From positions 1 through 64,000 of the forward strand of contig NZ_JAIXST010000322.1 in NCBI RefSeq assembly GCF_027484545.1: DNA of 64,000 bases, read 5' to 3'. This DNA comes from Runella sp. (GTDB taxonomy: Bacteria > Bacteroidota > Bacteroidia > Cytophagales > Spirosomataceae). Shown here piece by piece: positions 8,829-16,886 of the stretch. The notes under the pieces were generated by a model. It saw nothing but the letters and a program-made list of their open reading frames with translations, was not told the DNA's origin and did not search any database. Numbering within the stretch: position 1 is the stretch's first letter; each line of letters opens with the position of its first letter. The position numbers were made by a program, and so were the translations under genes.

Positions 8829-9602
8829 ATGATTCGCATTTTCAATCATTCAATACTCCTTATTATTTGCTGCCTTTTATTTTCCTGTTTTTCGGAAGAA
8901 AAAAAGGCAGCCGTTACAGAAGGCCCTATTTACACCTTGGTGTTTATGGACAAAACCCAGAGTGTCAATGTAAACAAGGCATTTGTGGCACAGAAATACC
9001 AACAAATTTTAAGTGACCTCGTAGAACAAAATATTCGGCAAAAAGGCGATAAATTAGAAGTGTATTTCATTCACGAAAATACCCAAAAAGCGCGTGCATT
9101 GTCGCTCACGTGCCGTACCCAAGTGGATGACATCAGCCACATGAACGCTACCGACCGCGAAGCAGCTCAAACGACTGCCGACCTTACCCTCCAGCGTGAA
9201 CGAATGATATTTTTGCGGCAACTCATGGCAAAATTGGGAGTCCAGAACGTAGGGACTTCACAACGCTATACAGACATTTGGGCAAGTTTGCCGGTGATTA
9301 ACAAAGCCGCCGAAACGGGTGCAGAAGTAAAAGTATATTATCTGAGCGATATGATTGAAAGCATGAGAGGTGCCAATCGTCGTGATTTTCATACGAATCC
9401 GCCGCAAGACAATGCGCAAGCCGACAATTGGGCCAAAACGGATGCCAAATTAATGAAACAATACGCGCTCAACGCGGCAGAAATAAAAATTGCCTTACCT
9501 TTTGACCCTACAAGCAGCACTAAAGAAAATAATCCTACAGTGACTCAATATTGGAGTACGCTGTTGCAGGAATTAGGAGCAGGTACGGTAGATGAATTGT
9601 AG
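8829..9602 (+). CDS. Predicted lipoprotein with von Willebrand factor A-like start
   Basis: 257 aa from the ATG at 8829. This start places a lipoprotein signal directly at the N terminus (MIRIFNHSILLIICCLLFSC, cysteine at the end of LLFSC). An upstream ATG at 8763 would bury the signal. After the lipid anchor comes YTLVFMDKTQSVN, a hydrophobic strand followed by D-x-T-x-S, which resembles the metal-ion-dependent adhesion motif of vWA domains. Later segments (AEVKVYYLSDMIESM) fit the alternating strand/helix pattern of that fold. I did not recognise a named family. It is convergent, with a 3-base gap, to the minus-strand envelope operon 9606-12986, which suggests a shared function. Confidence 0.65.
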   Translation: MIRIFNHSILLIICCLLFSCFSEEKKAAVTEGPIYTLVFMDKTQSVNVNKAFVAQKYQQILSDLVEQNIRQKGDKLEVYFIHENTQKARALSLTCRTQVDDISHMNATDREAAQTTADLTLQRERMIFLRQLMAKLGVQNVGTSQRYTDIWASLPVINKAAETGAEVKVYYLSDMIESMRGANRRDFHTNPPQDNAQADNWAKTDAKLMKQYALNAAEIKIALPFDPTSSTKENNPTVTQYWSTLLQELGAGTVDEL

Positions 9603-9605
9603 GAA

Positions 9606-10112
9606 TTAGTTAAATAATTTCCGCCAGCCCCACAACATTACTACCAACAAAACGGCAAAAATCACTAAGACGTACTCAAATTTGAGGTACGAGAATACTA
9701 CAATGTGGGTTCTGTCCACTATCCACATTATTGCTATAGTTGCAAAAATCATCAGCACCAATCCGCTCAGTTTCTGGAAACCCGGGATATAATCAAACGA
9801 AATGACGTTGCGCCGAATGAGCCACAGCGTAAGCAGCATTGAAAAGAAGGGAAGAATCTGGGTATAGATGTTAAAGTCGAAGATACTTCTGCGTTCAAAC
9901 AGAAACAAATAGGCGTTTAATGCCACTGCAAAAATGCCCGGTATACAGGCTAAATAAATCAAAAAAGCATAGAAATAATTCCAGGGAGGCAGGTGGCCGT
10001 CGTTCTTACCTAACCAGCCGGCCAATAAAGCCATGAGCGGTATGACGGCAAAATAAAAAAGCACCCAATCCGGGTGTTCACCTACTCGATCGAAGAATTG
10101 TTGTAAGGTCAT
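9606..10112 (-). CDS. Multi-pass inner-membrane protein of unknown function
   Basis: 168 aa with about five predicted membrane segments (near residues 17-34, 46-68, 80-100, 115-133, 147-165) and a short basic C-terminal tail (WGWRKLFN). There is no signal peptide beyond the first membrane helix and no recognisable catalytic motif. It is the last gene of a four-gene minus-strand series that continues upstream with coiled-coil, actin-fold and Lys/Ala/Pro-rich membrane proteins. An 80-base spacer holding a long hairpin separates it from the preceding gene. Confidence 0.65.
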   Translation of the reverse strand: MTLQQFFDRVGEHPDWVLFYFAVIPLMALLAGWLGKNDGHLPPWNYFYAFLIYLACIPGIFAVALNAYLFLFERRSIFDFNIYTQILPFFSMLLTLWLIRRNVISFDYIPGFQKLSGLVLMIFATIAIMWIVDRTHIVVFSYLKFEYVLVIFAVLLVVMLWGWRKLFN

Positions 10113-10130
10113 TGTTTAGGAGTCAGAATA

Positions 10131-10188
10131 GAGGAGCCGGAAGTGAGAAGGTGAGTATTTAAAACTCACTCCTCACTTCCGGCTCCTC
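10131..10188. repeat. Long intergenic hairpin made of GTGAG-type repeats
   Basis: GAGGAGCCGGAAGTGAG (from 10131) pairs with CTCACTTCCGGCTCCTC (ending 10188), and the inner GGTGAGT pairs with ACTCACT. This gives a stem of about 24 base pairs around an AT loop. It lies between two genes of the minus-strand operon and has no poly-T tail. The core GTGAG/CTCAC words recur in other spacers of the window. Confidence 0.6.
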
Positions 10189-10192
10189 ACTA

Positions 10193-11323
10193 CTAATTAA
10201 AAATATCCGTAATTCCCCCACCCGCGTTTTTCTGTTCTTGGGTAAGTTTGTAATTAGGATTTGAAACACGATTGGGGTCACTTACTTCAAACTCACCACC
10301 CTTGATTTGGTTGGCAAAGCTTTCAAGACGGGCATAAGCGCGTTCATCGTTAGGATTAAAATCTTTAACAATATTGTCCAAATCACGAATATTGGCCTGT
10401 GTACTGGCAATATCGCTGGCAATTTGCCCGGAAATTACTTCCAATGCGTAGTCTAACTGCCAGTCTTGGCTCTGACCCAACACTTTACGAGCACGAGTTG
10501 TAGCGTTATTGGCGGCAGCCATGGCGCGTGATTCCGTTTTGAGTAAGTTGATACTGGTTGCAAAGTCTTTCAGTTTTTCGTCGAAAGCGTGACCATAGCC
10601 GACCAACTTACGGTCTAATTTTGCAAACACATTAGCCCGTGAACCAAAAGTATCCACCAATCTTCTGTACGTTTCAGCCTCCGAAACCGAACGATTACCA
10701 TCACCAATAGCCGCGTTGAGTTTGCCTTCTAGTTCCACAAAATCGTCCGTTTCACGGGCAGCATCACCGCCTTTTTCCAACATTTTATCCAATTTTACTT
10801 TCAGAACTTTCGCTTCTTCCTGGCAGTAAACTACCTTTTGACCGGCATCTTTTGCTAATTTCTCAGCTTTAATCGCCTCTTGTTTCATCTGAATTTTACA
10901 GGCGTTGATTTCGGCTTTCACTGTTTCAAATTCCTGACGAGAGTCTTTCATTTTACCCAATTGGTCATCCAATTCGGCAAACGGATCCACTTTTATCAAA
11001 AACTTGTGTAATCCGCGAATAATGCGACGAAACAACTTGAAAATGAACGGCGCTAACATCACGCCGAAAATGACCGTTCCAACTACGACTAATGCCGCTA
11101 ACGCTTTGGTGAATGCCGCTACAATAATGGGCAACACAAACATAAAGAAGCCATAGACAATCCCCAAGATGAGAATGAGTCCCACAAACCAGGCAATGGA
11201 TTTCTCTCCTTTTTTCCAATTGGCCATGTTTTCGGGTAATACTTTTAATTTATTTTCACCGCCATCTAAATGTTTCAGAATCGGCAAATCACTAAGTTTA
11301 GTTAATGCTTGGTTATTTTCCAT
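10193..11323 (-). CDS. Membrane-anchored coiled-coil protein of unknown function
   Basis: 376 aa. Residues 1-40 are polar. Two membrane helices follow (about 43-65 and 70-95), then a basic segment (KLFRRIIRGLHKFLIK). A long, mostly helical, charged region (about 110-330) is rich in E, K, A and Q with heptad-like spacing, reminiscent of PspA- or TelA-like coiled coils, though no family match is claimed. The tail (residues 340-376) is polar and Asn/Gly-rich. Topology suggests an inner-membrane anchor holding a large cytoplasmic coiled coil. It lies 36 bases after the exported actin-fold protein gene, in the same direction. Confidence 0.65.
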   Translation of the reverse strand: MENNQALTKLSDLPILKHLDGGENKLKVLPENMANWKKGEKSIAWFVGLILILGIVYGFFMFVLPIIVAAFTKALAALVVVGTVIFGVMLAPFIFKLFRRIIRGLHKFLIKVDPFAELDDQLGKMKDSRQEFETVKAEINACKIQMKQEAIKAEKLAKDAGQKVVYCQEEAKVLKVKLDKMLEKGGDAARETDDFVELEGKLNAAIGDGNRSVSEAETYRRLVDTFGSRANVFAKLDRKLVGYGHAFDEKLKDFATSINLLKTESRAMAAANNATTRARKVLGQSQDWQLDYALEVISGQIASDIASTQANIRDLDNIVKDFNPNDERAYARLESFANQIKGGEFEVSDPNRVSNPNYKLTQEQKNAGGGITDIFN

Positions 11324-11358
11324 GAGAAAAGTGATTGGTTATATTTTTTCAAAAATAC

Positions 11359-12510
11359 TTATTTGAGTTGAAAATCCCCTTTGTACAAATCATATACAGT
11401 CGTATTTATCCAATAAGCATCACGAGTGAAATAAAACGTTTTGCGTTCAGGGTTGCCAATTTCTTTGACGGCTTGTAACACCAGCGAAATTCCTGCCAAA
11501 CACGCATCCCGATTATACACTTTTTTGGTCGCTTTATCGTGGTCTCTTATCATCAATTCTTTCAATTTGGCATCTTTGATGTTATCAAATTTACGAGTTT
11601 CAAACTCCGCCCATCCATCAGCCGACTGAAGCATGTTGTAAAAGCTGAGCAAATCGTCGTATTTGAACTCAATGATTTCTTCCTGCACTTTTTCGGGGAC
11701 CAACCACGTAATAAACTGATAGGACGCACCTCCAGTAGTATAAATTATGTTTCGAGTTGCCGAGCGAATTTCCGGGTTATCATTGAGCGACGACCGAATC
11801 AAGGGGGCAATGGAATCCTCTACCATCCCTTTAAGGTCTTTAGCATAAGCTTCAAAATTGCTTGTCCGTTTCAGCACTCTTTCCGATAAACGTCTCGCTC
11901 CGTATTCAATGTTATAGGATTTGAAGGTGTAACGTTCGCGTCCATCGGCTCCAATGTACTTTTGCAGAATTCCACCCTTGGTATTACCGCCACCCACATC
12001 TACCAAAATAGCGGAGTCAAAATCTTCCCGTGCCAAGCCTGCTCGTGCACCATAAGTCGCCTCAGTTTTAGCGGGCATATTCGTGTTTACGTGCATTGCA
12101 ATGTTTTTAAAAGCAAGGGCATCCAAATCAGCAATATTAGGAGCGATATTAACGCCTGAGGAAGCATAAATTACAAAATCCTTGTTGGTTAACTTATAGA
12201 CCGTTTTGGCGTCTTCCATCATTTCCTGCACAAACGCAATGGCTTCCTGGATATCAGCCGGACGAAGTTTCCCCCCATTGGTTTCCATTCCCTTCACCAA
12301 ACCTACCGTTTCCTGACGGTCATAGACCAGTTTGTAACGCAGTTTATTATTTTGAAAATAAAATCCAATTATAGACATCTTTACCCCCTGTGAACCAATG
12401 TCAAACCCGCCCCGATAACCCACGTATTTGGGGGCTTGAGCAAATGTGCCTACCGCTGCAAGTAGAAAAGCAATTAGAAGTAATAGCCCTTTATTAAAAT
12501 GATTTTTCAT
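11359..12510 (-). CDS. Exported actin-fold (ASKHA, Ppx/GppA-like) protein
   Basis: 383 aa with a clear Sec signal peptide (hydrophobic LLLLIAFLLAAVGTFAQ, cleavage after AQ likely). The mature part has the three nucleotide-site motifs of the ASKHA superfamily in order: phosphate 1 (GGFDIGSQGVKMSI, near residue 35), phosphate 2 (ILVDVGGGNTKGG, near 165) and an adenosine-type motif (IIYTTGGASYQF, near 250). The region LVKGMETNGGKLRPADIQEA followed by ASSGVN recalls Ppx/GppA phosphatases. Such proteins are normally cytoplasmic; export to a compartment without ATP is unusual and suggests a non-canonical ligand (polyphosphate or another phosphoester) or a structural role. It is second in the minus-strand envelope operon. 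Confidence 0.6.
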   Translation of the reverse strand: MKNHFNKGLLLLIAFLLAAVGTFAQAPKYVGYRGGFDIGSQGVKMSIIGFYFQNNKLRYKLVYDRQETVGLVKGMETNGGKLRPADIQEAIAFVQEMMEDAKTVYKLTNKDFVIYASSGVNIAPNIADLDALAFKNIAMHVNTNMPAKTEATYGARAGLAREDFDSAILVDVGGGNTKGGILQKYIGADGRERYTFKSYNIEYGARRLSERVLKRTSNFEAYAKDLKGMVEDSIAPLIRSSLNDNPEIRSATRNIIYTTGGASYQFITWLVPEKVQEEIIEFKYDDLLSFYNMLQSADGWAEFETRKFDNIKDAKLKELMIRDHDKATKKVYNRDACLAGISLVLQAVKEIGNPERKTFYFTRDAYWINTTVYDLYKGDFQLK

Positions 12511-12557
12511 AGATTTTTAACGATTACCAGATTCATGAAAACAAGGTACTTACCCGT

Positions 12558-12986
12558 TTAAATATCCACCTCTACGTCTTCGTTATTCTTTGTTTTCTTC
12601 TTTGGTTTTGCCGGGGCGGTCTCGTTTTTCTTTGCCGTTATTTTCTTCACTATTGGCTTCATTTTTTTATTGGCAGTGGCTTTTTTCTCTGGTTCAACTA
12701 CCTTAGCAGGAGCTTCATCCACCGCTACATCTTCTACTTTTGGTTTTTCTTCTTTGGCCGGTTCTTTTACATCTGAGGCTTGCGCATCGGTATTGACAGA
12801 AGTATTAGCACCTTCCGATACTGCAATAGTGTCCGTCGATGGAGTGGCTGTTACCGTTTTTTCTTTGTCACTATTGTAAATATACCATGCTGAGCCACCT
12901 AAAATACCAAGTACAACTAAGAAAATTAAAACTTTTGAAAAGGTAGTCAGTTGTGACCAGAAGCCGCGTTCTTGTTGAGGTTCCAT
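12558..12986 (-). CDS. Single-pass membrane protein with Lys/Ala/Pro/Glu-rich tail
   Basis: 142 aa. There is a short cytoplasmic N terminus (MEPQQERGFWSQLTTFSK), one membrane helix (about residues 19-35, VLIFLVVLGILGGSAWYIY), then a low-complexity periplasmic tail. The tail is first acidic (PAKEEKPKVEDVAVDEAPAK) and then strongly basic (MKPIVKKITAKKNETAPAKP), and ends acidic. The architecture resembles a TonB-like or spacer protein without a folded C-terminal domain. It is the first gene of the minus-strand operon, 47 bases before the exported actin-fold gene. Confidence 0.6.
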   Translation of the reverse strand: MEPQQERGFWSQLTTFSKVLIFLVVLGILGGSAWYIYNSDKEKTVTATPSTDTIAVSEGANTSVNTDAQASDVKEPAKEEKPKVEDVAVDEAPAKVVEPEKKATANKKMKPIVKKITAKKNETAPAKPKKKTKNNEDVEVDI

Positions 12987-13365: not shown

Positions 13366-14022
13366 ATGAAAAAGGCACTTTTTGCGTTGATTTTTCTATC
13401 TGCTTTACAGGCAAGCGCCCAATTTAACCGTAAGTTAATATTTGTAGGGATAAAAGGAGGAGCAAATTTTTCCAAACTCCAGACCGAAGGATTAACGATT
13501 TCAAAACCAGGAGCTTCCGTTCAGGATTTTTTCAAAAACAATTCTGCCAATCGTACAGGGTATATGGTAGGTGCATTTGCCCGAATTGGTCGGAAGCTTT
13601 TTATTCAGCCTGAAGTGTTATTGTCTTCAAAAGGAGGGACATTTGAGATTTTCAAAAATGGCAGTACCACCCCGGTCAATGTAGATGTTAAGTTCAGTCA
13701 AATTGATATCCCAGTATTAATTGGTTTCAAACTGGGGCCATTGCGAGTCAATGCGGGCCCAATGGCATCACTCAATGTAACACAGGGAGGCAAATTAGGC
13801 GACGCACTCAAAGAATATACGACTCAAAATATTAATAAAACCATTCAGCAGGCAACTTTCGGCTATCAGGCAGGAGTAGGTTTGGACATTCGCTCGTTCA
13901 ATATTGACCTTCGCTACGAAAGCGGTTTGTCAAACATATCACAGTTGAATCTCCAAAACAACGCTCAATTTAACAGCAAAGTGAGTTTATGGCAATTGAG
14001 CTTAGGCTTTGTTTTGTTCTAA
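13366..14022 (+). CDS. Outer-membrane beta-barrel (porin/PorT-like) protein
   Basis: 218 aa with a signal peptide (MKKALFALIFLSALQASAQ). The mature sequence opens with GIKGGANFSKLQTEG, the typical first strand of the Bacteroidota outer-membrane beta-barrel family, and ends with an aromatic-terminated strand (WQLSLGFVLF). Alternating short amphipathic strands (RKLFIQPEVLLSSKGGTFEI, YQAGVGLDIRSFNIDLRYE) fit an eight-stranded barrel. No pore or enzyme function can be assigned. It is monocistronic, ends at a strong bidirectional terminator, and converges on the LytTR regulator gene. Confidence 0.8.
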   Translation: MKKALFALIFLSALQASAQFNRKLIFVGIKGGANFSKLQTEGLTISKPGASVQDFFKNNSANRTGYMVGAFARIGRKLFIQPEVLLSSKGGTFEIFKNGSTTPVNVDVKFSQIDIPVLIGFKLGPLRVNAGPMASLNVTQGGKLGDALKEYTTQNINKTIQQATFGYQAGVGLDIRSFNIDLRYESGLSNISQLNLQNNAQFNSKVSLWQLSLGFVLF

Positions 14023-14099: not shown

Positions 14100-14507
14100 T
14101 CAGGCACATTTTACAAGAGGATTCAATATTCCGCATACTTCACGTATCCTGCGGCGAGAAATCGCAATCTCTCTCCCTCCTCGTAATTTGAGCGAACGGT
14201 CGTACTCACAAAATTCCTGTAAATAGTTAAGATTTATAATCCATGATTTGTGAACTCGCACAAAAGTAAGCTGATCCAATATGGCAGCGTAACTTTTCAA
14301 AGTTTTAGATACTAAATATCGTTTTCCATCACTGGTATAAAGAAAAGCATAGTTTCCTGAACCTTCTATACACATCAGTTGATCCGTCTGTATAATTACC
14401 TGTCGGTTTCCATTAGGAATAATAATACTGTGCAGAGGTTGTGCAGCAATCGCAGAAGGAGCATGAAAGCTGTTAAGTATAGGTTGAGTGTTCATGATGC
14501 TTGTCAT
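14100..14507 (-). CDS. LytTR-domain DNA-binding regulator
   Basis: 135 aa consisting of a short N-terminal tail (about 35 residues) and one LytTR domain. The domain opens QTDQLMCIEGSGNYAFLYTS and contains the conserved FVRVHKSWIINLNYLQEFCE and GGREIAISRRRIREV segments. There is no receiver domain, so it is a stand-alone DNA-binding protein and not a classical response regulator. The start is uncertain between 14507 and an in-frame ATG at 14495. Two perfect 19-base direct repeats lie 68 and 161 bases upstream of the start and are candidates for its own or another regulator's binding sites. Confidence 0.85.
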   Translation of the reverse strand: MTSIMNTQPILNSFHAPSAIAAQPLHSIIIPNGNRQVIIQTDQLMCIEGSGNYAFLYTSDGKRYLVSKTLKSYAAILDQLTFVRVHKSWIINLNYLQEFCEYDRSLKLRGGREIAISRRRIREVCGILNPLVKCA

Positions 14508-14574
14508 TTAGAATTGGAAAGGGATGAATTTGTATCACATTGACAAGGCAAACTTAATATAAAAAAAATCGTCA

Positions 14575-14686
14575 ATAAAACACGTAGAAATACCTATAAC
14601 GACTTAATTAATTGAAAATCAAATAATTAAAAAACATCTACTCTACTTAAATCAGTACTACCACTTGATAAAACACGTAGAAATAC
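14575..14686. repeat. Perfect 19-bp direct repeat pair with interrupted palindrome
   Basis: ATAAAACACGTAGAAATAC occurs at 14575-14593 and again at 14668-14686, 93 bases apart, in the spacer between the LytTR gene and mscL. Each copy contains CGTA-N4-TAC; the second copy extends to CGTAGAAATACG, a perfect interrupted palindrome. Identity over 19 bases in a short AT-rich spacer is unlikely by chance and points to a protein-binding site. Confidence 0.6.
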
Positions 14687-14693
14687 GCATACA

Positions 14694-14730
14694 AAAAAGC
14701 CTCGTTTACCAGCTGCAAACGAGGCTTTTT
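14694..14730 (-). terminator. Intrinsic terminator of mscL
   Basis: AAAAAGCCTCGTTT / AAACGAGGCTTTTT inverted repeat of 14 bp around a short loop, 20 bases after the mscL stop. The A/T ends allow function in both directions. Confidence 0.8.
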
Positions 14731-14749
14731 ATATGTAAAAGTGTTATGA

Positions 14750-15088
14750 TTACTCTTTGGGAGCCAATGAGTTTGACAGTTTGGCTTTATTAGCAGCCTT
14801 CACAATCATAAAAATCACCCACATCGTAATCACAAACTGAATACCAATGTTCACGAAATTTCCATATCGAATAGCCACTTCAGCCGTGCCCGTAGCTGAA
14901 TCGGCAGCTTTCAATACTATCTTGAGCGCAGAAAAATCAACGCCTCCGATAGCCAAGCCTACTATTGGATTAATAATATCGTCCATAAAAGCTGTAACGA
15001 CTTTTCCAAAAGCAGCACCTATCAAGAAACCAACCGACAAATCAAGGACGTTACCTTGGGCAATAAATGTTTTGAATTCTTTAAGCAT
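14750..15088 (-). CDS. mscL: Large-conductance mechanosensitive channel MscL
   Basis: 112 aa. It opens MLKEFKTFIAQGNVLDLSVG, followed by FLIGAAFGKVVTAFMDDIINP, the conserved first pore helix and the signature of MscL. The second helix is FVITMWVIFMIVKAANK. The protein is slightly shorter than the ~130-140 aa average, mainly in the C-terminal cytoplasmic helix, which ends soon after KLSNSLAPKE. The channel opens at high membrane tension to release solutes on osmotic downshock. It lies downstream of an operon carrying an MscS-type channel, so two tension-gated channels are encoded within 2.5 kb. Confidence 0.93.
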   Translation of the reverse strand: MLKEFKTFIAQGNVLDLSVGFLIGAAFGKVVTAFMDDIINPIVGLAIGGVDFSALKIVLKAADSATGTAEVAIRYGNFVNIGIQFVITMWVIFMIVKAANKAKLSNSLAPKE

Positions 15089-15163
15089 TTGAATAAGGAT
15101 TTAAGGTTTAAAAGGAAGTAATAAACAAAATCAAAGTAAAAAGTTTATTTTTCAAAAACCAAA

Positions 15164-16052
15164 CTACCAGTTGTATAAAAACCCAAAATTGATGGATTGA
15201 GCCAGCTGCATCTTAGCAATTTGGTCTTGGTCATAAATCGCTATTAATCCTAAATTAACGTTGAAGTACTTAGCAAATTTAGCAGTTAGTTGGGCATCAA
15301 TGCGATTGTCAATGGCAGCAAGATCCTTTGTACTGGCAAATGCCTGATATCTCCACTTGAAGTTGAGATCTTTACAAGATCTTTATTATAGCTCATTACT
15401 AACTGTAAAATAGCGATTTCATTTCGAATACTTTTACCACGTTCCACTCCATAGTTGGAGAATTTATATTCAGGACTGAGACGGTCAATTTCCTTATATA
15501 AGTTCTTATTCCCTAAAATTGTTTGGCGAACGGCTCCCGGAGCAAACTGCATACTAAAAAATTTATTGGGCTTCCACTCGATACCAATAGCTTCCGTTAG
15601 ATACAGAGGAGTAAAAAAACTTGAAATAAAAGGGCGGCGCGCATCACCAAAATCTCGACCATTGGCAATTTGTGAAAGAAAGTTCAGGGTTGTAAAAAAG
15701 TACCACTGCGAATTTTCTCCCAATTTCCGTCCGTACTTAGAATCAAAAAATATACGGTCGATACTTTTACGAAAAGCATCTCCTTTGTTTTGAATTGCAC
15801 CCAATTGAAATTGAAAGTCATTGACCCAACTGTCACGGGCTTTGGTATATTCGCCTTTTGAGTTGAGATAAACACCAAGCACAATGTTGTTGACACCTCC
15901 TCCCTGCCAACTGCCACTAAAAGTTCCTTGGCTCAAATTGAGTCCAAATTGTGATTTTTTCTCCAATAACTGGTATCTTTTACTGCTTCCTGAGCAAAAG
16001 TAACCTGAGAAAAACAGCTGATAAGAAAAAAGGCAGTAACTATTCTTTTCAT
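15164..16052 (-). pseudogene. DUF3078 protein gene broken by two frame lesions
   Basis: Reading from ATG 16052 gives a signal peptide (MKRIVTAFFLISCFSQVTFA) and the start of the mature protein. The frame is lost at an A6 tract (15955-15960), where one base is missing relative to the continuation KKSQFGLNLSQGTFSGSWQG, the DUF3078 hallmark. The second frame is open until about 15375. An 11-base near-tandem duplication there (AGATCTTTACA at 15366, AGATCTTTATT at 15377) shifts it again. Removing one copy restores SYNKDLNFKWRYQAF and the frame then runs to the stop at 15164, ending INFGFLYNW. DUF3078 proteins are Bacteroidota envelope proteins, probably barrels. It lies 3 bases after the MscS gene. 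Confidence 0.8.
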
Positions 16053-16055
16053 ATT

Positions 16056-16886
16056 TTAATTTTTAAAAATTTCTACTTTTTTGGATTGCAGAGTTTGTAA
16101 AGGAAATACAGTTTTAGTGTCACCTGTTTGAAGAGTAATAGATGTAGAATCAAGGCTTACTATTTGACCTTTCACTTCATCTATTTGAATGATCTGCCCT
16201 TCCTCATAGCGATTTTTATTGTAGAATGAAGACAGGATATTGGCTAAAATATCTTTAGAAGCAAATCCATAGCCTACTGCAAAAGCTAAAATGATACCGC
16301 CAATTAAAAGATTAAAACTGGATTCCAATAACTCAGTATTAATACCGGCTTGTCCTAAAGCGCTGATAATTGTAATAACCAAAAAAAACGAAAAAACGAT
16401 TGTCCCGATGAGCTTAGCAGAAGGTACATTGAATGATTTACAAATAGAAACCACTGCATTCTTGATAGCTTCCGACACCAATACGCCAATTTGAAGCATA
16501 ATGGCGGCTACGATGAGCTGAGGTACAAAATTAACTAATTTCTCTACCAAACCGGTAATCGCTCCAACACCCAATGTCCGGGTAGCATCCGTTATAAAAC
16601 CCAGCATAATAAAATAATAAAGCACTTTAGAGACAATCTGACTGAGTTTTACCTCTGTCTGAAGTTGTTTTACAATACTTACTTCGTTCAGTTTATCTCC
16701 AATTTTGTCAAAGCCTATTCGCTCCAGCACTTTATTGGTTACAACAGCCAATCCTTTTGCTACTAAGTAACCAATAAGTAAAATAAAGGTGGCAAAAATG
16801 AATCGTGGGACAAAATCAACAAACTGATTAATCAGTTTGGTAAGTGTACTAATCAAAACTTCGGTGAGATTAGGCAATTCTTTCAT
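16056..16886 (-). CDS. MscS-family mechanosensitive ion channel
   Basis: 276 aa with about five membrane helices (first near residues 22-45, a pair near 85-140, then 160-180 and 195-215) followed by a short beta domain. The pore-lining region reads LLIGGIILAFAVGYGFASKD, with small Gly/Ala spacing like MscS TM3. The beta domain (GQIIQIDEVKGQIVSLDSTS, then TVFPLQTLQSKKVEI) matches the MscS middle domain. The large C-terminal alpha/beta cage of E. coli MscS is absent. The ATG overlaps the stop of the preceding small gene by 4 bases, so the two are translationally coupled. It belongs to the sigma factor-led operon. Confidence 0.85.
   Translation of the reverse strand: MKELPNLTEVLISTLTKLINQFVDFVPRFIFATFILLIGYLVAKGLAVVTNKVLERIGFDKIGDKLNEVSIVKQLQTEVKLSQIVSKVLYYFIMLGFITDATRTLGVGAITGLVEKLVNFVPQLIVAAIMLQIGVLVSEAIKNAVVSICKSFNVPSAKLIGTIVFSFFLVITIISALGQAGINTELLESSFNLLIGGIILAFAVGYGFASKDILANILSSFYNKNRYEEGQIIQIDEVKGQIVSLDSTSITLQTGDTKTVFPLQTLQSKKVEIFKN

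Follow-up and report, generated by a model that had tools for sequence, protein, structure and literature searches.

The question raised by positions 8,829 to 12,986 of a Runella sp. contig (NZ_JAIXST010000322.1, whose first 64,000 nucleotides are the window analysed here) is whether five adjacent genes, P1 to P5, encode one envelope system, and of what kind. A first-pass annotation, made from the letters alone, had described P1 as a lipoprotein with a D-x-T-x-S motif ending 3 bases from a convergent operon, P2 as a five-helix membrane protein, P3 as a membrane-anchored coiled-coil protein, P4 as an exported protein with ASKHA motifs and P5 as a single-pass protein with a low-complexity tail; it placed them all in one envelope assembly, could name no family, and proposed an undescribed system. 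An open reading frame (ORF) check of the window found all five where it had placed them, the individual descriptions were borne out, and a membrane or exported location is predicted for each of P2, P3 and the anchored or exported ASKHA protein. Our answer, to which we give about an even chance, is that a PspA/ESCRT-III-type envelope module is split between two loci, that P2-P3-P4-P5 make up one of its halves, and that a periplasmic ASKHA switch acts on P3. The computed results behind it are the homologies of the P3 family and of P4, a shared membrane anchor, co-occurrence across genomes, a peptide that tracks P4, and a second locus in the same genome.

In P3 a hydrophobic stretch (residues 39-102) is followed by long helices. 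When 36 members of its family were compared with 20 PspA sequences, HHalign gave a probability of 93.7 and an E value of 1.8e-7 over 188 columns, while the same P3 profile gave 0.011 with reversed PspA and 0.031 with a HlyD-type family. An earlier HHalign comparison of P3 with five PspA sequences was weak (E 0.016), and the match became clear only with the 20 PspA and 36 P3 sequences. The conserved D/N-P that opens the long-helix region of P3 aligns with the DP of PspA. PspA_IM30 is the commonest Pfam match among the 36 members (nine at E ≤0.1, best 4.2e-8); the P3 of the window itself has no Pfam match, so it does not reach the gathering score of PF04012 (PspA_IM30). Whole-genome searches with the PspA model returned two P3-type genes, both short of the 33.9-bit cut-off (33.1 and 24.2), and the P3 profile recovers canonical PspA in two genomes (G651, 6.3e-5; G623, 9.7e-4). 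A PspA above the Pfam cut-off was found in none of the 13 genomes of the same genus, which we call congeners, and in five of the 29 genomes searched. Matches to the P3 profile occur in 18 of 395 genomes of the phylum and in 24 of 295 of the class, some of them weak. The P3 family appears, from these profile comparisons, to be a membrane-anchored relative of PspA/ESCRT-III, and with P4, assigned below near Ppx/GppA, it speaks against the view that no member belongs to a nameable family.

The neighbours of P3 were read at 45 loci from other genera, of which 19 belong to the family and 26 lie beyond it; these loci were hand-picked from match lists and are not a random sample. A third coiled-coil protein, c17, adjoins P3 in 41 of the 45 (not in L089, L095, L097 and L098). 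As a PspA relative c17 was rejected: its match to PspA (E 0.0024) is worse than that to reversed PspA (3.2e-4), and it is therefore named a coiled coil only. At 16 of the 26 loci outside the family, a gene for a solute-binding protein (SBP)-OmpA protein lies downstream of P3 within 6 kb (in L131 with two ORFs between), accompanied at 15 of them (exception L088) by an ABC permease; ABC ATPase genes come next in order at the loci read in detail. The other ten loci, from G186, G213, G307, G311 and G327, have neither SBP-OmpA nor permease. For both L092 and L154, Pfam confirmed the OmpA, permease and ATPase assignments, although the L092 permease scores below the cut-off (21.9 vs 26.4 bits). In L092 the gene after the ATPase is an AAA+ by Pfam, and the same gene family occupies that place in L099, L101 and L126. 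Operons of this type are already in print, since Ravi et al. 2024 (PMC11237479) describe in their main text transmembrane PspA/Snf7 operons with PBPB-OmpA, ABC ATPase, permease and AAA+.

The P3 operon of the window contains no PBPB-OmpA, ABC permease or ABC ATPase, and no AAA+ ATPase is found among the genes of the cluster, although no genome-wide search for one was made. A second locus of the same genome, on contig C111 (L154, 2049-7510), carries c17, SBP-OmpA, ABC permease, ABC ATPase and c37 on one strand, c37 being an anchored ASKHA protein of about 350 amino acids (aa) composed of anchor, linker and ASKHA domain. This run has the usual operon order without P3, plus c37, and the window locus therefore holds the missing P3. 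At the comparable place in four other congeners (L155, L156, L157 and L170), c17 and c37 alone are present. Sulfatase-like genes, recognised by a sequence motif only, lie near the C111 run and also in L155 and L157.

The link between P3 and an ASKHA protein extends through the family. Of the 19 loci that belong to the family but not to the genus, 11 have c37 on the P3 strand at a distance of at most 6 kb. In the 150 family genomes sampled for co-occurrence, P3 is found in 112, c37 in 110 and both in 108 (by genus, P3 in 27/36 and c37 in 26/36); the Fisher tests applied to such counts treat related genomes as independent. P3 occurs without c37 in four genomes: G006, where no c37 was found and P4 stands in a c17-P3-P2 operon (L002), G022 and G123, which have SBP-OmpA in the P3 operon (L162 and L052), and G035, a genome 63% complete. 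The reverse is seen in G015 and G042, in which c37 and c17 come after a vWA-PP2C-kinase set (L160 and L161). Outside the family, c37 was matched in 8 of 242 class genomes including the window's own, strongly in only two others (G213 and G651). P2 is found in 88 family genomes, all 88 with P3, and within 6 kb of it in 57, of which 13 are congeners; its model (mean predicted local distance difference test, pLDDT, 77) has a short helix (3-12) followed by five of membrane length, and Foldseek against the PDB gave a best E of only 1.4. Two simpler schemes were discarded: that ASKHA always substitutes for SBP-OmpA, because the two occur together in one run of the window's genome, and that P4 and P5 simply substitute for c37, because all 13 congeners also have c37, although G006 fits.

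Further ASKHA genes lie near Ser/Thr kinase and PP2C genes (L169:5738-11721 and L026:2520-14648); the one in L026 encodes an exported TPR-ASKHA protein and is also close to genes for an FHA protein and a caspase-TPR protein of 1505 aa (Pfam). Exported-looking TPR-ASKHA proteins, mostly of about 465-500 aa, occur in many family genomes (L016-L035), and P3 was not seen in the stretches fetched around these genes.

How P4 could be connected to P3 is indicated by P5, which has one membrane segment (10-38) and a tail of 102 residues, rich in K, A, E, V and T. A profile of the N-terminal 45 residues of 17 SBP-OmpA proteins was compared with 1393 other ORF N-termini from the loci, and its top 16 matches were nine P5 (eight of this genus and one of G006) and seven c37 (E 6e-10 to 1.8e-4), the next match having an E of 0.0026. 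The scores of the real profile were 26.3 bits for c37, 35.3 for any P5 and 29.9 for the P5 of the window, compared with best values of 8.8, 19.1 and 14.2 bits for 100 shuffled profiles, whose columns were permuted inside and outside the hydrophobic core. Because of this ranking and these controls, SBP-OmpA, c37 and P5 appear to share one common anchor bearing different heads. The peptidoglycan-binding OmpA domain must be periplasmic, and its placement therefore suggests that the c37 head and the P5 tail are periplasmic as well.

The opposite end of P5 follows the presence of P4. In a set of seven P5 taken from P4 genomes, the mean identity is 83% in the anchor, 50% in the linker (lowest pair 18%) and 93% in the last 17 residues (lowest 88%). 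This peptide was found in 10 of 12 P4 genomes (defined by a P4 match of at least 60% identity), is the end of P5 in 6/6 P4-bearing congeners and is present in 3/5 P4 genomes of a second genus; in G006, the peptide-bearing P5 is on a different contig from P4, beside relatives of the window genes at 13366 and 14100. The exact-pattern search, which covered 16 genomes and left out three P4 congeners because the peptide had been seen at their loci, found it in none of the seven P4-less congeners (reversed-pattern control, 0), two of which retain a P5 that ends differently (L047 and L048). We read the peptide as a putative docking motif for P4. Comparable peptide docking is known from FtsZ-FtsA and PilN-PilM.

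P4 begins with a signal-type sequence (hydrophobic residues 5-28 followed by TFA-QA, as judged by eye), and the glycines of its phosphate-1, phosphate-2 and adenosine motifs are invariant in 14/14 aligned members. The profile of these 14 members matches GppA/Ppx chains of the PDB with a best E of 8.6e-11, and the same search also returned unrelated TAL-effector repeats (best 3.2e-7). P4 stays below the family cut-offs, with 17 vs 27 bits for PF02541 and 33.9 vs 307 bits for TIGR03706 (NCBIfam, E 2e-8). On sequence grounds, P4 is a member of the ASKHA superfamily near Ppx/GppA. The residues named for Ppx/GppA in PMC5417653 and PMC3411833 are an Arg and a Glu in catalysis and an Asp and a second Glu in metal binding. 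Relative to these, P4 retains the connect-1 Glu (E150) and the phosphate-2 Asp (D171), and has Asn121 at the position of the catalytic Arg, as located from the GppA alignment plus the 28-residue spacing to the Glu, and Lys178 at that of the second Glu; among the 14 aligned members the Arg and the second Glu occur in none, and the Lys is invariant. Because these two residues are replaced and the sequence is exported, we favour P4 as more likely ligand-binding than an exopolyphosphatase. P4 has an 86-87% match to Runella defluvii and R. limosa, which places the genome in Runella or close to it. The gene order P2-P3-P4-P5 is identical in five other P4-bearing congeners, so the arrangement is not due to chance.

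From these results we infer the topology, the docking, the direction of the signal and membrane maintenance as the output. P3 would form its assemblies at the cytoplasmic side of the inner membrane, and P5 would be an inner-membrane anchor with its tail extending into the periplasm, where its C-terminal peptide would dock the exported P4. P4 would act as a ligand-controlled switch and not as an active exopolyphosphatase, and P2, with its five helices, would be a partner in the membrane. Via the anchor and P2, P3 would receive the state of the periplasmic head, and this relay would control P3 assembly on the stressed membrane, with the SBP-OmpA/ABC head presumably acting likewise in the related operons. 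A bolder proposal, which we hold as possible but doubtful, is that a peptide-docked periplasmic ASKHA head on a swappable inner-membrane anchor forms an outside-in switch over an ESCRT-III relative, replacing the SBP-OmpA/ABC head; within this same proposal, the ASKHA head would perhaps substitute for the Vps4-like AAA+ step too. If true, bacterial ESCRT-III-like proteins could be governed from the periplasm via a modular anchor with interchangeable heads, one of them an exported actin/Ppx relative, and P5-P4 would be a short peptide-protein pair open to direct testing. This would bear on the control of PspA homologues without an AAA+ ATPase, which the main text of PMC11237479 names as unknown.

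Several observations weigh against the split module. P4 is missing in 7 of the 13 congeners that retain P2 and P3, with no P4 remnant seen at the seven loci, and P4 and P5 are therefore dispensable there; all 13 congeners have c37 elsewhere in the genome, and P4 and P5 may therefore be accessory. In the second genus, P4 and a P5-like protein are encoded beside lpdA, far from P3 (three genomes, L039-L041), and the anchor of the P5-like protein is not recognised by the anchor profile (E 1.1, one listed). In the P4 genomes G040 and G069 the peptide pattern was not found, although an exact pattern would miss variants. To our knowledge, ATP is not expected in the periplasm. As for P3, the long subtype alone (13 members including the window's) gives an E of 0.009 with PspA and 0.004 with reversed PspA, and is linked to PspA via the other subtype (HHalign probability 96.7, E 4e-10); the score of c17 with reversed PspA indicates that coiled coils can score by composition. 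The AlphaFold2 model of P3 consists of long helices and is weak (pLDDT 65), its best Foldseek match has an E of 0.012, and Vipp1 appears at 0.043 among other coiled coils. In VIA-align, P3 matched a BAR domain (3ok8_A, Z 11.3, root-mean-square deviation (rmsd) 4.0, 188 aligned) and IST1-CHMP1B (3jc1_Ab, Z 10.2, rmsd 1.9, 81 aligned), in a range common for helical models, and these fold searches do not distinguish ESCRT-III from BAR and other helical proteins.

The loss of P4 from seven congeners in which P2-P3 remain, and its position with a P5-like protein beside lpdA in the second genus, would both be accommodated if P4 and P5 were an exported ASKHA pair of their own, which in this genus came to lie next to P2-P3 and shares no function with them. 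We judge this rather unlikely, as P5 has the anchor of the SBP-OmpA and c37 proteins of P3 operons, and G006, in which no c37 was found, has P4 within its c17-P3-P2 operon. Another explanation takes P4 for an exported phosphatase, of polyphosphate or a similar substrate, feeding an SBP/ABC transporter, so that the system would serve nutrient uptake and not membrane maintenance. The Ppx/GppA similarity would agree with this, as would the ABC permease and ATPase at the second locus of the genome and in the related operons, but of the published active-site residues only E150 and D171 are kept, the Arg being replaced by Asn and the second Glu by K178, and all 14 members lack both replaced residues; in addition, the SBP part is weakly NMT1-like in just one of three members scanned. 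This makes the uptake function improbable.

That all five proteins, P1 included, form one envelope-spanning complex is suggested by the 3 bases separating P1 from the convergent P2 and by the proximity of the two genes in 12 of the 13 congeners. In P1 the lipobox Cys20 is invariant in 22 aligned sequences, as are the MIDAS-like D41, S45, T148 and D174, with T or S at residue 43 (22/22). Neither the Pfam hits of the 22 members nor the PDB hits include a vWA match, in searches that can miss distant vWA domains, and the term 'vWA-like' for P1 therefore rests on the motif. P1 is present in 126 of the 150 family genomes, yet it lies within 6 kb of P3 in only 12 of the 109 genomes having both, and near P2 in only 12 of the 87 having both, all of them in this genus; elsewhere its neighbours are different. 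The five-protein complex is accordingly very improbable, and P1 is most likely a mere neighbour, not a demonstrated part of the module. The single envelope assembly proposed in the first-pass annotation thus survives in part: P2, P3 and an ASKHA protein co-occur beyond the genus (88/88 and 108/150), whereas membership of P1 is not supported. In other genera (L016, L018, L020, L022, L061, L063, L079 and L080), P1 adjoins the protein c18 (about 310-340 aa), of which the single member tested (L016) has no Pfam match, and we regard c18 as a better candidate partner of P1 than P2-P5. A defence-system identity was discarded, as the PADLOC matches were only weak (P1-PycC 0.0021; P3-JetC 0.0032; P3-DpdH 0.018).

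The features of the locus are collected below. P1 and P2 are separated by bases 9603-9605, and the gaps on the minus strand are 80 (P2/P3), 35 (P3/P4) and 47 bases (P4/P5).

Table 1. Coordinates of the genes and other features of the P1-P5 locus in the window
Feature	Position	Strand or place	Description
P1	8829..9602	+	Lipoprotein with MIDAS-like D-x-T-x-S...T...D set; convergent neighbour, probably outside the module
P2	9606..10112	-	168-aa five-helix membrane protein; family without a name
Inverted repeat	10131..10188	P3-P2 gap	20-nt arms, 95% complementary, 18 nt between
P3	10193..11323	-	Membrane-anchored long-helix protein of a family that appears PspA/ESCRT-III-related
P4	11359..12510	-	Exported ASKHA (Ppx/GppA-like) protein
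P4 signal sequence	12436..12510	-	Residues 1-25; cleavage TFA-QA, judged by eye
P5	12558..12986	-	Single-pass protein: anchor, low-complexity linker, conserved C-terminal peptide
P5 C-terminal peptide	12561..12611	-	Residues 126-142; proposed P4 docking motif
P5 N-terminal anchor	12864..12986	-	Residues 1-41; apparently related to the anchors of SBP-OmpA and anchored ASKHA proteins

The inverted repeat has a 15-base core that is single-copy in the window. In the congener G129 (L037:1929-2277), P2 is apparently broken, its matches being spread over several frames with stops, and P3, P4 and P5 are open. The region adjoining the cluster (14100-16886) encodes a LytTR regulator, MscL, a DUF3078 protein and an MS_channel_1st_1 protein (Pfam), a neighbourhood retained at many congener loci.

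Four known systems invite comparison. The TerY-P triad is described in PMC11090510 as a vWA protein, a PP2C and a Ser/Thr kinase. In two genomes of another genus, such a vWA-PP2C-Ser/Thr kinase set is followed by c37 and c17 on the same strand (L160:4988-10357 and L161:1724-7084; Pfam for L160), whereas the window locus has no such genes and its P1 is a lipoprotein. Like the Ppx/GppA phosphatases, P4 has the ASKHA motifs, the phosphate-2 Asp and a catalytic Glu; it differs in that its type is exported or anchored, in the replaced Arg and second Glu, and in falling below the family cut-offs. The P3 family resembles PspA/Vipp1/ESCRT-III in profile homology and in the aligned D/N-P, whereas P3 has an extra N-terminal membrane part, belongs in the window to a longer subtype, and remains below the Pfam threshold.

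The closest comparison is with the operons of Ravi et al. 2024. The operon type is already present in that paper, which leaves the ASKHA variant as the only part to which the first-pass annotation's claim of an undescribed system could apply. The main text of PMC11237479 contains no 'ASKHA', 'Ppx' or 'exopolyphosphatase', and no description of the variant was recognised in searches of a library of open papers without supplements. The ASKHA-bearing locus is a new variant of this recently described PspA/ESCRT-III operon type. As far as the main text goes, the two have in common the P3-type protein with a membrane segment, the third coiled coil, SBP-OmpA, permease and ATPase, and, at four loci here (L092, L099, L101 and L126), an AAA+ family gene; in the variant, in contrast, the head is an ASKHA domain, either fused to the anchor or split into P5 and the exported P4, and P2 is added.

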